Below, piece after piece: positions 57,611 to 61,839 of a stretch of DNA of 64,000 bases (position 1 is its first letter; every line of letters starts with the position of its first letter). The notes under the pieces were generated by a model, which did not search any database, was not told the DNA's origin, and saw only the letters and a list, made by a program, of their open reading frames with translations. Origin of the DNA: an uncultured Ruminiclostridium sp. (lineage in GTDB: Bacteria; Bacillota; Clostridia; Oscillospirales; Ruminococcaceae); contig CANRGJ010000002.1 in assembly GCA_947630175.1 (NCBI GenBank), forward strand, positions 124,001 through 188,000, read 5' to 3'. The position numbers and the translations under genes are program-made.

Positions 57611-57639
57611 TTGACAGAAAACGGTGAGGATATTATAAT
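57611..57639 (+). promoter_or_regulatory. Consensus promoter of the hydrogenase-maturation cluster
   Basis: TTGACA, 17-bp spacer, TATAAT. Transcription would start near 57646, leaving a leader of about 126 bases before the first gene. Confidence 0.87.
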
Positions 57640-57663
57640 GTAAGTGCTGAGGTGTGAGAGCTT

Positions 57664-57768
57664 CTTTCGCCGAAGCAGGAATTTTACTGACGCTGAAAAA
57701 AATTTTGAGGCGAAAGGGCTTGTAAAATACGAAGTTATGCCCTTTTGCGCCTTGCGAAAGGGCTTTTT
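57664..57768 (+). promoter_or_regulatory. Candidate cis-regulatory leader RNA with antiterminator and terminator
   Basis: Three mutually exclusive stems can be drawn. P1 pairs CTTTCGCC (57664-57671) with GGCGAAAG (57709-57716) around a 37-base interior. An antiterminator pairs GGCGAAAGGGC (57709-57719) with GCCCTTTTGCGCC (57739-57751). The terminator GCCCTTTTGC/GCGAAAGGGC (57739-57763) is followed by TTTTT. P1 formation frees the terminator strand. The terminator's 3' arm also contains the AAAGGG ribosome site of the next gene. I recognise no named riboswitch class. Confidence 0.72.
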
Positions 57769-57771
57769 CTT

Positions 57772-58041
57772 ATGGATTCGAGAGTTGCCGTTATAGGGAT
57801 AATCGTGGAGGACGAAAACTCCGTAGATAAGCTGAACAGCCTGCTCCACGGCTACGGGAAGTATATCGTGGGGAGAATGGGTATTCCCTACCGCAGTCGG
57901 GGAATAAATATCATAAGTATAGTTATAGACGCGCCGCAGGACGTTATCAGCGCCCTGTCGGGGAAGATAGGCGCACTGAAGGGCGTCAGCGCAAAGGCCG
58001 CCTATTCCGCCGTGAAAACAGGAGAAAACGATGCAGGATAA
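57772..58041 (+). CDS. TM1266-type putative [FeFe]-hydrogenase system regulator
   Basis: The start is MDSRVAVIGIIVEDENSV (nine codons into a longer frame), because the AAAGGG site lies directly before it. The 89-residue ferredoxin-like (ACT/NikR-C-like) protein carries LHGYGKYIVGRMGIPYRSRGINIISIVIDA, the signature of the TM1266 family found next to hydrogenase maturases. Its function is not established; a regulatory role is presumed from the fold. It overlaps hydE by 11 bases and is thus co-expressed. Confidence 0.85.
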   Translation: MDSRVAVIGIIVEDENSVDKLNSLLHGYGKYIVGRMGIPYRSRGINIISIVIDAPQDVISALSGKIGALKGVSAKAAYSAVKTGENDAG

Positions 58042-59071
58042 GCTGATACAAAAGCTGTACGATAATGTCGATCTGTCCGCAGAGGAGCTGAAAACGCTGA
58101 TAGAAAACCGCAGTGACGAGGACTTTAAGCTGCTCAGCGGCTTTGCAAGGAAAAGGTGCGAGGAAAGCTACGGGGACAGGGTGTTCACCAGAGGGCTCAT
58201 CGAATTTTCCTCCTGCTGTAAAAACGACTGCCTTTACTGCGGGCTGAGAAGGAGCAACAAAAATGCGGAGCGATACAGGCTCAGCGAGGAAGAGATACTT
58301 TCCTGCTGTGACAGCGGGTACGAACTGGGCTTTCGCACCTTCGTCCTGCAAGGCGGGGAGGACGTGCATTTTACCGACGATATTTTCTGCAATATCATAA
58401 AAAAGATAAAGGAAAAATATCCCGACTGCGCTATTACACTTTCACTTGGAGAGAGAAGCAGGGACAGCTTTCAGCGGCTGTTTGACGCGGGGGCGGACAG
58501 GTATCTGCTACGGCATGAGACCGCTGACAAGGAGCATTATTCCAAGCTCCACCCGCCTGAGATGTCGTTCGATAACCGTATGCGCTGTCTGAAAGATCTG
58601 AAAGAGATAGGTTATCAGGTGGGGTGCGGGTTTATGGTTGGTTCCCCCTATCAGACGGTGGACTGTCTTGTAAAGGACCTGCGGTTCATCAAGGAGTTTC
58701 AGCCGCATATGGTGGGGATAGGTCCGTTTATACGGCATAAGGACACGCCTTTTCGTGATAAACCTGATGGAACGCTGGAGCTGACGCTGTTTTTGCTGTC
58801 GGTGATAAGGCTGTTGTTGCCTAAGGTTTTATTGCCCGCTACAACGGCGCTGGGAACGATAAGTCCCAACGGACGGGAGCAGGGGCTTATGGCGGGGGCG
58901 AACGTGGTTATGCCCAATCTTTCCCCTGTCAGCGTGAGGAAAAAATATCTGCTGTACGACAACAAGATATGCACGGGCGAGGAAGCCGCAGAGTGCAGAG
59001 GCTGTCTGCAAAGGAGAGTTGAAAGCGTGGGCAGACGGCTGGTGTGCGAGAGGGGAGATTATGGGAGCTAA
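58031..59071 (+). CDS. hydE: [FeFe]-hydrogenase maturase HydE (radical SAM)
   Basis: The 346-residue protein has the radical-SAM motif C-x3-C-x2-C (Cys63, Cys67, Cys70 in CCKNDCLYC) in the HydE-specific context IEFSSCCKNDCLYCGLRR, then FRTFVLQGGED. HydE works after HydG in building the diiron subcluster of the H-cluster. The first stop is at 59071. CAGGAG within the preceding gene is its ribosome site. HydG lies 1.3 kb downstream; hydF is not seen in the window. Confidence 0.95.
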   Translation: MQDKLIQKLYDNVDLSAEELKTLIENRSDEDFKLLSGFARKRCEESYGDRVFTRGLIEFSSCCKNDCLYCGLRRSNKNAERYRLSEEEILSCCDSGYELGFRTFVLQGGEDVHFTDDIFCNIIKKIKEKYPDCAITLSLGERSRDSFQRLFDAGADRYLLRHETADKEHYSKLHPPEMSFDNRMRCLKDLKEIGYQVGCGFMVGSPYQTVDCLVKDLRFIKEFQPHMVGIGPFIRHKDTPFRDKPDGTLELTLFLLSVIRLLLPKVLLPATTALGTISPNGREQGLMAGANVVMPNLSPVSVRKKYLLYDNKICTGEEAAECRGCLQRRVESVGRRLVCERGDYGS

Positions 59072-59123: not shown

Positions 59124-59654
59124 ATGAAAGTAATAGCTATTGCCTCTGTTACGGCAGGCGGAAAAACAACGGTTGTTAATGAAATTAAAAAGAAACTGCC
59201 CAAAACGGCTGTGCTTCATTTTGACGATTATTCTTTTGACGGAGAAGTCCAAGACTTTTATGAATGGACTTTAGACGGCGCGGATTATAATATATGGAAT
59301 TTAGCTCCGCTGAAAAAAGACATTATTTCAACAAGAAACAGCAAAGCATATGAATATTTATTATTGGATTACCCGTTTGCTTATCGCAATGACAAAATAA
59401 AAGATTATATAGACTATGCTGTATTTATTGACACGCCTTTGGACATAGCAATGGCCAGAAGAGTGCTGAGAGATTTTAAAGACGCCACCGCGGAAGAAAT
59501 TCGCAATGATATGAAAATGTATTTAAAATACGCGCGAGTTGTTTATATACAAATGCTCAAAGATATACTTCCTTCGTCGGACTGTGTAGTTGACGGAACA
59601 AAAGAATTAGATGTCATTGTTGATGAAATCTTAAAAGTAATTTCAGAAATCTAA
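59124..59654 (+). CDS. P-loop kinase, uridine-kinase-like
   Basis: The 176-residue protein begins KVIAIASVTAGGKTTVVNEI, a P-loop with Ser in place of the first Gly. It continues with LHFDDYSFDGEVQDFYEWT and the LLLDYPFAYRND Walker-B-like region, then a lid with Arg residues (ARRVLRDFKDATAEE), as in small nucleoside/uridine kinase-like proteins of Firmicutes. The substrate is unknown. The DNA is clearly richer in A and T than hydE and hydG, and the gene interrupts that cluster, suggesting a later insertion. Confidence 0.75.
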   Translation: MKVIAIASVTAGGKTTVVNEIKKKLPKTAVLHFDDYSFDGEVQDFYEWTLDGADYNIWNLAPLKKDIISTRNSKAYEYLLLDYPFAYRNDKIKDYIDYAVFIDTPLDIAMARRVLRDFKDATAEEIRNDMKMYLKYARVVYIQMLKDILPSSDCVVDGTKELDVIVDEILKVISEI

Positions 59655-59741
59655 ATTCAGGTTTATTAAAGACACTCTTTAAAAAATTATTAAATTTATT
59701 TATAGTATATGGTAAAGCGAAGTATAAAGGAGTAATTTCAA

Positions 59742-60335
59742 ATGGAAAAACAGAAGGTAACAATTCAACCGCTTCGCCCGGAATTATGCGAAGATTGGCT
59801 CGGTTTTTTTGAAAAAATTGCGTTTGGCGATCATGGGGAGTGGGCATCTTGCTATTGCCTTGAGGGGCATTTGGATTCAGAAACTAACGATAAATTGGCA
59901 GATCCAAGAAAGCGCAGAGAAAAAGCTGTTGAATTAATTAAAACGGGTGAAATGCAAGGGTATCTTGCTTACTCAGATAATATGGTTATCGGTTGGTGCA
60001 ACACCAATGACCGAAAAAATTACAAATACATTACTGAAATGTTTCAGAAAATCGGTTATCAGACAGATGATAAGGCAGACGCAAAGGTAAAGTCGGTTTA
60101 TTGCTTTTTAATCGCTCCTGAATATCGAGGTAAAGGAGTCGCTCAAAGTCTGCTTAAACGTGTATGTGAAGACGCGGCACAGGACGGATATTCCTGCATA
60201 GAGGCATATCCGTTTTCAGATAAAAAATTTGAGTATCAGTATCATGGAACTTCCAGTATGTATGAGAGAAACGGCTTTTTTGAAATTGCGGATTTGAATT
60301 ATATAAAAGTTATGCGAAAAAATTTATTTTGCTGA
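59742..60335 (+). CDS. GNAT-family N-acetyltransferase
   Basis: The 197-residue protein has VYCFLIAPEYRGKGVAQSLLKRV, with the R-G-K-G-V-A acetyl-CoA loop, and a C-terminal MYERNGFFEIADL block. The N-terminal DHGEWASCYCLEGHLD is Cys-rich. It resembles acetyltransferases of unknown substrate that are often acquired with resistance genes. It is AT-rich like the kinase gene before it, and both lie between hydE and hydG. AAAGGAG precedes the ATG. Confidence 0.83.
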   Translation: MEKQKVTIQPLRPELCEDWLGFFEKIAFGDHGEWASCYCLEGHLDSETNDKLADPRKRREKAVELIKTGEMQGYLAYSDNMVIGWCNTNDRKNYKYITEMFQKIGYQTDDKADAKVKSVYCFLIAPEYRGKGVAQSLLKRVCEDAAQDGYSCIEAYPFSDKKFEYQYHGTSSMYERNGFFEIADLNYIKVMRKNLFC

Positions 60336-60417: not shown

Positions 60418-61839
60418 ATGTACGACCCCAAATCAATGAAGGCTGAGGAATTTATCAGCGACGAGGAGATAAGGGATACCCTTGATTACGCCGAAAAAAA
60501 CAAGCACAATATTCCTCTTATCGACAGCATTATCGAAAAGGCAAAGCTGAGAAAGGGACTTTCACACAGAGAAGCCTCAGTCCTGCTTGCCTGCGAGAAT
60601 GAGGAGAAGATACAAGAGGTTTACGACCTTGCGGAGCAGATTAAGAAGGATTTCTACGGAAACAGGATAGTTATGTTCGCTCCGCTGTACCTGTCAAACT
60701 ACTGCGTGAACGGCTGTCTTTACTGCCCCTATCATCTCAAGAACAAGCACATTCCCCGCAAAAAGCTGACGCAGGAGGAGATAAAAAACGAAGTCATCGC
60801 TTTGCAGGATATGGGTCACAAGCGCCTTGCGATAGAGGCGGGGGAGGACCCTATAAACAATCCTATCGAGTACATTCTGGAATGCATAAACACCATTTAC
60901 AGCATAAAGCATAAAAACGGCGCTATCAGGCGTGTAAACGTGAATATCGCCGCTACCACCGTAGAGAATTACAGAAAGCTCCACGAAGCGGGGATAGGAA
61001 CGTACATTCTGTTCCAGGAAACATATCACAAGGAAAGCTACGAGCGCCTGCACCCCACGGGTCCCAAGCACAACTACGCTTACCACACCGAGGCGATGGA
61101 CAGAGCTATGGAGGGCGGCATTGACGACGTGGGACTTGGCGTTTTGTTCGGGCTGGAGCTGTACAAGTATGAATTTGCGGGACTGCTTATGCACGCGGAG
61201 CATCTTGAGGCGGTACACGGCGTAGGTCCTCACACCATAAGCGTTCCCAGAGTAAAGCACGCCGACGACATTGACCCTGACGAATTCGACAACGGTATCA
61301 GCGACGATACTTTCGCAAAGATATGCGCTTGTATCAGAGTGGCTGTTCCCTATACTGGAATGATAATCTCCACCCGCGAGAGCAAGGCGGTAAGGGAAAA
61401 GGTGATACGCCTGGGCGTTTCCCAGATAAGCGGCGGCTCAAAGACAAGCGTTGGCGGATATTACGAGCCTGAGCCTGAGGAGGAGAGCAGCGAACAGTTC
61501 GACGTTTCCGACAAGAGAACGCTGGACGAGGTGGTAAGGTGGCTTATGGAGATAGGCTACATTCCCAGCTTCTGCACCGCCTGCTACCGTGAGGGCAGAA
61601 CTGGCGACCGCTTTATGAGCCTTTGCAAAAGCGGGCAGATACAAAACTGCTGTCACCCCAATGCGCTGATGACGCTGAAGGAATATCTGGTGGACTACGC
61701 AAGCCCCGAAACAAGAGCGATAGGCGAAAAGCTGATAGAAAAAGAGCTGGATAATATACCTAAGGAAAAGGTAAGGCAGATCGCTAAGGATTACCTTGAG
61801 TCAATTGAAAAGGACGGAAAGAGAGATTTCAGGTTCTGA
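60418..61839 (+). CDS. hydG: [FeFe]-hydrogenase maturase HydG (tyrosine lyase, radical SAM)
   Basis: The 473-residue protein carries the radical-SAM site Cys96-x3-Cys100-x2-Cys103 (YCVNGCLYC). It also has the C-terminal auxiliary cluster ligands Cys386, Cys389 and Cys412 (FCTACYREGRTGDRF, NCCHPNAL), which distinguish HydG from the related ThiH. HydG cleaves tyrosine to p-cresol, CO and cyanide and builds the Fe(CO)2(CN) synthon for the H-cluster. AAAAGGAG precedes the ATG. Confidence 0.96.
   Translation: MYDPKSMKAEEFISDEEIRDTLDYAEKNKHNIPLIDSIIEKAKLRKGLSHREASVLLACENEEKIQEVYDLAEQIKKDFYGNRIVMFAPLYLSNYCVNGCLYCPYHLKNKHIPRKKLTQEEIKNEVIALQDMGHKRLAIEAGEDPINNPIEYILECINTIYSIKHKNGAIRRVNVNIAATTVENYRKLHEAGIGTYILFQETYHKESYERLHPTGPKHNYAYHTEAMDRAMEGGIDDVGLGVLFGLELYKYEFAGLLMHAEHLEAVHGVGPHTISVPRVKHADDIDPDEFDNGISDDTFAKICACIRVAVPYTGMIISTRESKAVREKVIRLGVSQISGGSKTSVGGYYEPEPEEESSEQFDVSDKRTLDEVVRWLMEIGYIPSFCTACYREGRTGDRFMSLCKSGQIQNCCHPNALMTLKEYLVDYASPETRAIGEKLIEKELDNIPKEKVRQIAKDYLESIEKDGKRDFRF

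Follow-up and report, generated by a model that had tools for sequence, protein, structure and literature searches.

Conserved leader hairpins mark the [FeFe]-hydrogenase maturation regulon of Clostridia and are a candidate target of the putative regulator TM1266

The control of [FeFe]-hydrogenase maturation is, to our knowledge, little understood, and a leader with the look of an attenuator in front of maturation genes raises the question of which part of it acts as the sensor and what reads that sensor. The locus studied here lies on the forward strand of the window, a 64,000-nt stretch of DNA from an uncultured Ruminiclostridium sp., and begins with a consensus promoter, TTGACA-17-TATAAT (57611 to 57639; 12 of 12 matches in a consensus scan), from which transcription is expected to start near 57646. 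The leader runs from about that position to the ATG, at 57772, of a gene for an 89-aa putative regulator (57772 to 58041) that belongs to the TM1266 family (TIGR03959, 116.7 bits against a curated cut-off of 60.8). This gene is followed by hydE (58031 to 59071; TIGR03956, 585.4 bits against 254.6) and, farther downstream on the same strand, by hydG (60418 to 61839; TIGR03955, 951.6 bits against 312.15), with genes for a kinase-like protein and for a GNAT acetyltransferase between the two (59124 to 60335). The 124-nt leader folds better than its shuffles (z of -2.37, with 3 of 200 shuffles equally good). A search of 71 genus genomes returned near end-to-end DNA matches to it in its own genome and in two sister species (94 to 95% identity); it occurs once in its own genome, where no second copy was found. 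A 30-nt match on the other strand of one further genome (G018, L034) looks like chance.

The initial annotation had described this leader as a complete attenuator switch, and its parts are largely as described: the promoter and every sequence string it named are present, and GCCCUUUUGC (57739 to 57748) can pair either back with GCGAAAGGGC at 57710 to 57719, the 5' arm of an antiterminator, or forward with GCGAAAGGGC at 57754 to 57763, forming a terminator hairpin of 10 to 11 bp (57739 to 57763; terminator scan and fold) followed by five T's (57764 to 57768). The strings and the fold agree on this alternative, and mutually exclusive antiterminator and terminator structures lie downstream of the proposed regulator site in the window, with comparable features in part of the wider leader set. 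The 3' arm of the terminator also holds AAAGGG (57757 to 57762), the likely ribosome site of the TM1266 gene, 9 nt before its ATG, as had been claimed.

The sensor had been sought in a long-range stem, P1, between CTTTCGCC (57664 to 57671) and GGCGAAAG (57709 to 57716). These segments form a perfect 8-bp complement, and in the window RNA the folding energy with P1 is practically the same as with the two local hairpins H1 and H2 described below (-39.8 versus -39.9 kcal/mol); the computed probability of P1 is 0.56 to 0.67 for transcripts ending at 57730 to 57738 and 0.63 for the full leader, versus 0.34 to 0.36 for H1/H2. Across 19 aligned leaders, however, P1 was paired in 71.1% of cells compared with 71.8% in shuffles, its covariation score was 0.045 against 0.081 in shuffles, and it is broken in the two nearest relatives (CTTTCACC, L021 and L022). 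Being level with the hairpins and likelier in the full leader, P1 may form in the window species, but it is not the part that selection retains. We reject P1 as a conserved stem, since it pairs no better than shuffles, and regard it as a highly improbable sensor. The covariation check that the annotation had proposed for its stems thus gave nothing for P1 and compensatory changes in H1 and H2.

H1 (57646 to 57676), identified from the 19-leader alignment, is an upstream copy of an RNA element and reads GCU-GA-GGUG ... CGCC-GA-AGC; H2 (57687 to 57717), the core copy, reads CUGA-CGCU-GA ... GA-GGCG-AAAGG and is identified by the alignment, by a pattern test and by a covariance model of the core, R1 (E of 4.9e-8, 40.7 bits, the window sequence being among the R1 seeds). 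H1 was paired in 98.5% of cells of the 19 leaders, with 6 of 7 pairs changed on both sides and none of 500 shuffles reaching its covariation score, and H2 in 99.3%, with 5 of 8 pairs changed on both sides. The alignment had held 21 leaders (A3) and was reduced to 19 (A4) before counting by dropping L025 and L115, in which H1 was misaligned; a GGTG/CACC helix can be made out by eye in both. The core consists of CUGA, a helix strand of 3 to 4 bp, RA, a short helix, a loop, the short helix again, GA, the helix complement and AAAG. Both strands read CUGA-helix-RAAG, so that the element is nearly two-fold symmetric. The outer internal loop of H1 is of the same GA/RA type, and its inner loop differs. 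The most conserved letters sit in the internal loops, and the terminal loop of H2 varies in length and letters, in which the element departs from ANTAR elements, whose two hairpins carry conserved six-base loops.

The hairpin is common upstream of TM1266 in our sample of 45 genus loci and 80 named contigs (the best 80 of 161 found). A letters-only pattern drawn from outside the helices, with no pairing demanded, matched 55 times in 116 distinct upstream regions, whereas the opposite strand gave 2 matches and dinucleotide-shuffled sets averaged 1.65; the central helix was fully paired in 33 of the 55, versus 0 on the opposite strand and 0.05 in shuffled sets. The central pairs pass through several Watson-Crick combinations, a count that is biased, as are those for the central pairs of H2, because full central pairing was demanded of the 28 seeds (A2); the H1 pairing count and the letters-only test are free of this bias. 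Covariation and recurrence of H1 and H2 thus give the leaders of related genes a conserved sensor structure of the kind expected of a riboswitch, and the comparison supports, as the probable sensor, two local hairpins with GA/RA-type internal loops rather than P1. The leader itself is a copy of a cis-regulatory RNA element with a wide distribution.

R1 was run on the 71 genus genomes and on 391 genomes of the class Clostridia. In the class sample it gave 74 matches at E of 0.01 or lower in 70 genomes, of which 71 were inspected (those in G201, G155 and G136 were left out). Regulon genes follow 47 of these 71, and 31 of the 33 matches at E of 1e-4 or lower. The first gene after the 47 linked matches is TM1266 in 23 cases, hydG in 14, hydE in 4, aspartate ammonia-lyase (aspA) in 2, with hydF next at one of these loci (L210), and hydF, a FecCD-type permease, a NifH-like gene and an SsuC-like permease in 1 each. 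The 24 unlinked matches are mostly weak, with many of them inside reading frames; the strongest have E of 9.2e-6 (G187) and 1.8e-5 (G224:C14). Some genomes have two element sites (G254, G117, G139), and in five (G209, G295, G280, G374, G145) the element stands between TM1266, directly upstream, and hydE, hydF or hydG, directly downstream. The link to hydrogenase maturation that the initial annotation had drawn from one locus is thus borne out and was understated: on this comparison the window leader is one copy of a motif preceding many hydrogenase-maturation genes, and its two conserved hairpin copies mark a predicted regulon for maturation of the H-cluster, the [FeFe]-hydrogenase cofactor.

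This regulon seems to extend to transport. A homologue of one SsuA-like binding protein was found in 20 genus genomes, and at 12 of the 20 loci a promoter and two tandem elements, followed by a GCGCC...GGCGC hairpin, lie upstream of the binding protein gene. The script misplaced H2 in two of these 12 leaders (L255 and L263), both of which have H2 by eye, and a further one (L253) retains 3 of the 4 central pairs in each hairpin. In G038 (L264) the binding protein directly follows TM1266 and the element stands in front of TM1266; at the remaining 7 loci, with more distant binding proteins, no element was seen. We consider the SsuA-like protein a candidate importer component for hydrogenase-cofactor metabolism. 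The protein at L167:2154-3266 and at 11 homologous loci contains a KGPTAMGM stretch. Operons that combine a FecCD-type importer, HydE and NifH/NifD-like proteins stand behind the element in two other families. One, in G447 (L273), has a FecCD-type permease, HydE and NifH/NifD-like genes, and its importer ATPase (L273:1488-2594, G447:C5) ends in a C-terminal TM1266 domain (75.8 bits, cut-off 60.8). In the other, G139, one element (L272, C59) leads NifH/NifD/NifE-like genes, a heme/iron-type binding protein, a permease, an ATPase and HydE, and a second (L213, C7) leads an SsuC-like importer; the NifD- and NifE-like proteins of these operons are presumed to be such from their sequences. The two importer types and the nitrogenase-like operon probably belong to the metabolism of the H-cluster or of related iron cofactors.

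The distribution of the element appears to track TM1266 rather than HydE. TM1266 was found in 45 of the 71 genus genomes, all 45 loci being fetched, and the element occurs in 40 of these 45 compared with 3 of the 26 genomes without TM1266, counts that are not corrected for phylogeny; 5 of the 40 were scored solely through their TM1266 leader, a route closed to genomes without TM1266, and excluding them leaves 35 of 45. Among class genomes with HydE, the element was present in 40 of 206 with TM1266 and in 1 of 50 without it, again uncorrected for phylogeny and with the HydE leaders of TM1266-less genomes searched with R1 alone. This count used 44 motif genomes, two of them then unclear (G119 and G447); their removal gives 38 of 206 versus 1 of 50 (p=0.002), and, read by eye, the element is followed by TM1266 in G119 and by an importer-HydE operon in G447. 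No linked R1 match was present in 166 of the 206. Divergent variants explain part of this, true absence being another reason; since R1 misses variants, absence of the element from many genomes with TM1266 is not proof. Four genomes count against a role for TM1266, which was not found in any of them: G052, with the element directly before hydE (68% complete), G057 and G059, with the element at the transporter (80% and 83% complete), and G084, with the element before hydG (97% complete) in a HydG-HydF operon cut by the contig end. In one genus clade (L002-L009, L011-L013, L019, L020) TM1266 has no leader of its own and lies closely behind another reading frame, which we take to encode an acyltransferase-associated-like protein.

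How the hairpins could act on expression is suggested by the order of folding. In growing window transcripts the computed ensemble probabilities of H1 and H2 are 0.99 and 0.98 at 57717, that of the antiterminator is 0.99 when the transcript ends at 57751, and that of the terminator is 0.97 at 57769 and in the full leader. The antiterminator 5' arm (57710 to 57719) overlaps the 3' strand of H2, which would be captured by the downstream GCCC.. arm as polymerase advances, giving the antiterminator and read-through; if H2 were held folded, the antiterminator would be blocked, the terminator would form and the operon would be OFF. Complementarity between the 3' strand of the element and the downstream region reaches p<0.05 in 32 of 85 leaders, whereas the 5' strand, taken as control, reaches it in 9 of 85; a terminator-like stem is present in 66 of the 85, a set from which L003 and L070 were excluded as misplaced matches and in which the G117 locus is counted twice, so that two rows are one locus. 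No terminator was found in three hydG leaders (L187, L201, L227); their start codon lies 8 to 14 nt after the element, so that the AAAGA of the element is the likely ribosome site. By eye, the start of TM1266 comes directly after the AAGGAG of a variant element in nine leaders, mostly from Coriobacteriales (L041, L046, L047, L049, L050, L052, L061, L062, L063). In leaders without a terminator the same strand, as the likely ribosome site, would be masked and expression OFF when the hairpin is folded. Because the H2 3' strand is the antiterminator arm and in some lineages the ribosome site, folding should mean OFF, and we infer that the sign would be the same in terminator and ribosome-site leaders.

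What might hold the hairpins folded? The TM1266 family, to which the window protein belongs, is known just as a putative regulator, with a solved structure (2nzc) that has the fold of the NikR C-terminal sensor domain. With 89 aa in that fold, TM1266 is without the DNA-binding part of NikR and leaves no room for a ribbon-helix-helix domain. We hypothesize that TM1266 protein would bind the pseudo-two-fold hairpins, repressing the operon that encodes it and the remaining regulon genes, perhaps in response to a metal, an iron-sulfur signal or a cofactor precursor. The annotation had named TM1266 among its candidates, and the distribution of the element speaks for that choice. PyrR works in a comparable way in the pyr attenuators: encoded in the operon it controls, it keeps an anti-antiterminator hairpin closed and thereby lets the terminator form. 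The likeness would lie in the operation, that of a hairpin held folded by a regulator from the controlled operon; the differences lie in the NikR-type fold of the proposed reader, in a pseudo-symmetric and often tandem hairpin and in H-cluster maturation as the target. For PyrR sequence features the comparison covered Rfam. The RAT hairpins of LicT and SacY likewise measure some 30 nt, carry two internal loops and fit a protein dimer; they compete with a terminator and promote read-through, whereas the present hairpin competes with an antiterminator.

That TM1266 binds the hairpins and represses the H-cluster maturation regulon in the manner of a PyrR attenuator is in our judgment the best explanation, with chances slightly better than even. 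Its main rival is a small-molecule or metal-ion riboswitch, often tandem, with a ligand from H-cluster assembly or an importer substrate and with TM1266 as just another member of the regulon. Such a switch would be at home in the tandem leaders of the SsuABC-like importer (12 of 20 loci), before the FecCD-type importer and before hydE in G052; that the internal loops hold the most conserved letters also speaks for it. The force of the transporter leaders is lessened by the presence of TM1266 in 10 of the 12 genomes with a tandem importer leader, none of which showed such a leader within about 330 nt of TM1266 itself. The element also follows TM1266 and not HydE, and an aptamer would normally be larger than a 31-nt hairpin whose two internal loops are small and symmetric; on balance we consider a riboswitch unlikely.

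A different RNA-binding protein, with TM1266 merely sharing the pathway, would fit the hairpin symmetry, which is what a protein dimer would be expected to need and points to no particular protein. We think this quite improbable, since TM1266 is the gene most tightly linked to the element (first after it in the 23 of 47 class matches), directly precedes it in five genomes and is fused to a regulon ATPase in G447. Returning to TM1266, the widest formulation is that this protein, with its NikR sensor fold, binds RNA, reads pseudo-symmetric, often tandem hairpins and so shuts off a whole iron-cofactor regulon (hydEFG, aspA, the SsuABC-like importer and the FecBCD-HydE-nitrogenase-like operon), terminating transcription in most Clostridia leaders and masking the ribosome site in others; this we put forward tentatively, at a little under even chances. 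The annotation as a whole is partly supported.

Known RNA families are ruled out by the lack of an Rfam match. Rfam 15 (4227 models) returned two tRNAs alone at gathering score in the whole window, with no glycine riboswitch or T-box, and at E of 5 or lower in ten relatives it gave three matches, all far below gathering score and none to the glycine riboswitch; one, to STnc540, overlaps the leader of L018 (24.6 bits against a gathering score of 38). The doubt already cast on a glycine aptamer was thus justified. According to PMC5651825, a leader RNA, the Moco/tungsten-cofactor riboswitch, precedes the genes of a hydrogenase complex in Eubacterium limosum; this family had no Rfam match in the window or the ten relatives, and its structure differs.

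No description of the element was found in open-access PMC full text, a scope outside which lie supplements and a 2017 RNA survey that reportedly lists 224 candidate RNAs. The main texts of PMC8632094, PMC11109978 and PMC6429828 contain 0 occurrences of hydrogenase, hydE, hydG, TM1266 and maturase. As far as these searches of the open-access literature reach, an RNA target for TM1266 would be new. The element gives an orphan putative regulator of solved structure a testable target and defines a regulon, and its 31-nt hairpin is a small reagent for finding the signal.

Variants without a Watson-Crick central helix occur in coriobacterial and some clostridial leaders. In two related species (L160, L161) a weak element-like match, which may be chance, overlaps the ribosome site of a gene that we take to be dnaN-like, and between the two the helix changes in a compensatory manner (CGT/ACG, CAT/ATG). 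Outside Clostridia, two tandem element-like hairpins were seen by eye upstream of TM1266 in Loigolactobacillus bifermentans (L104:1-440).
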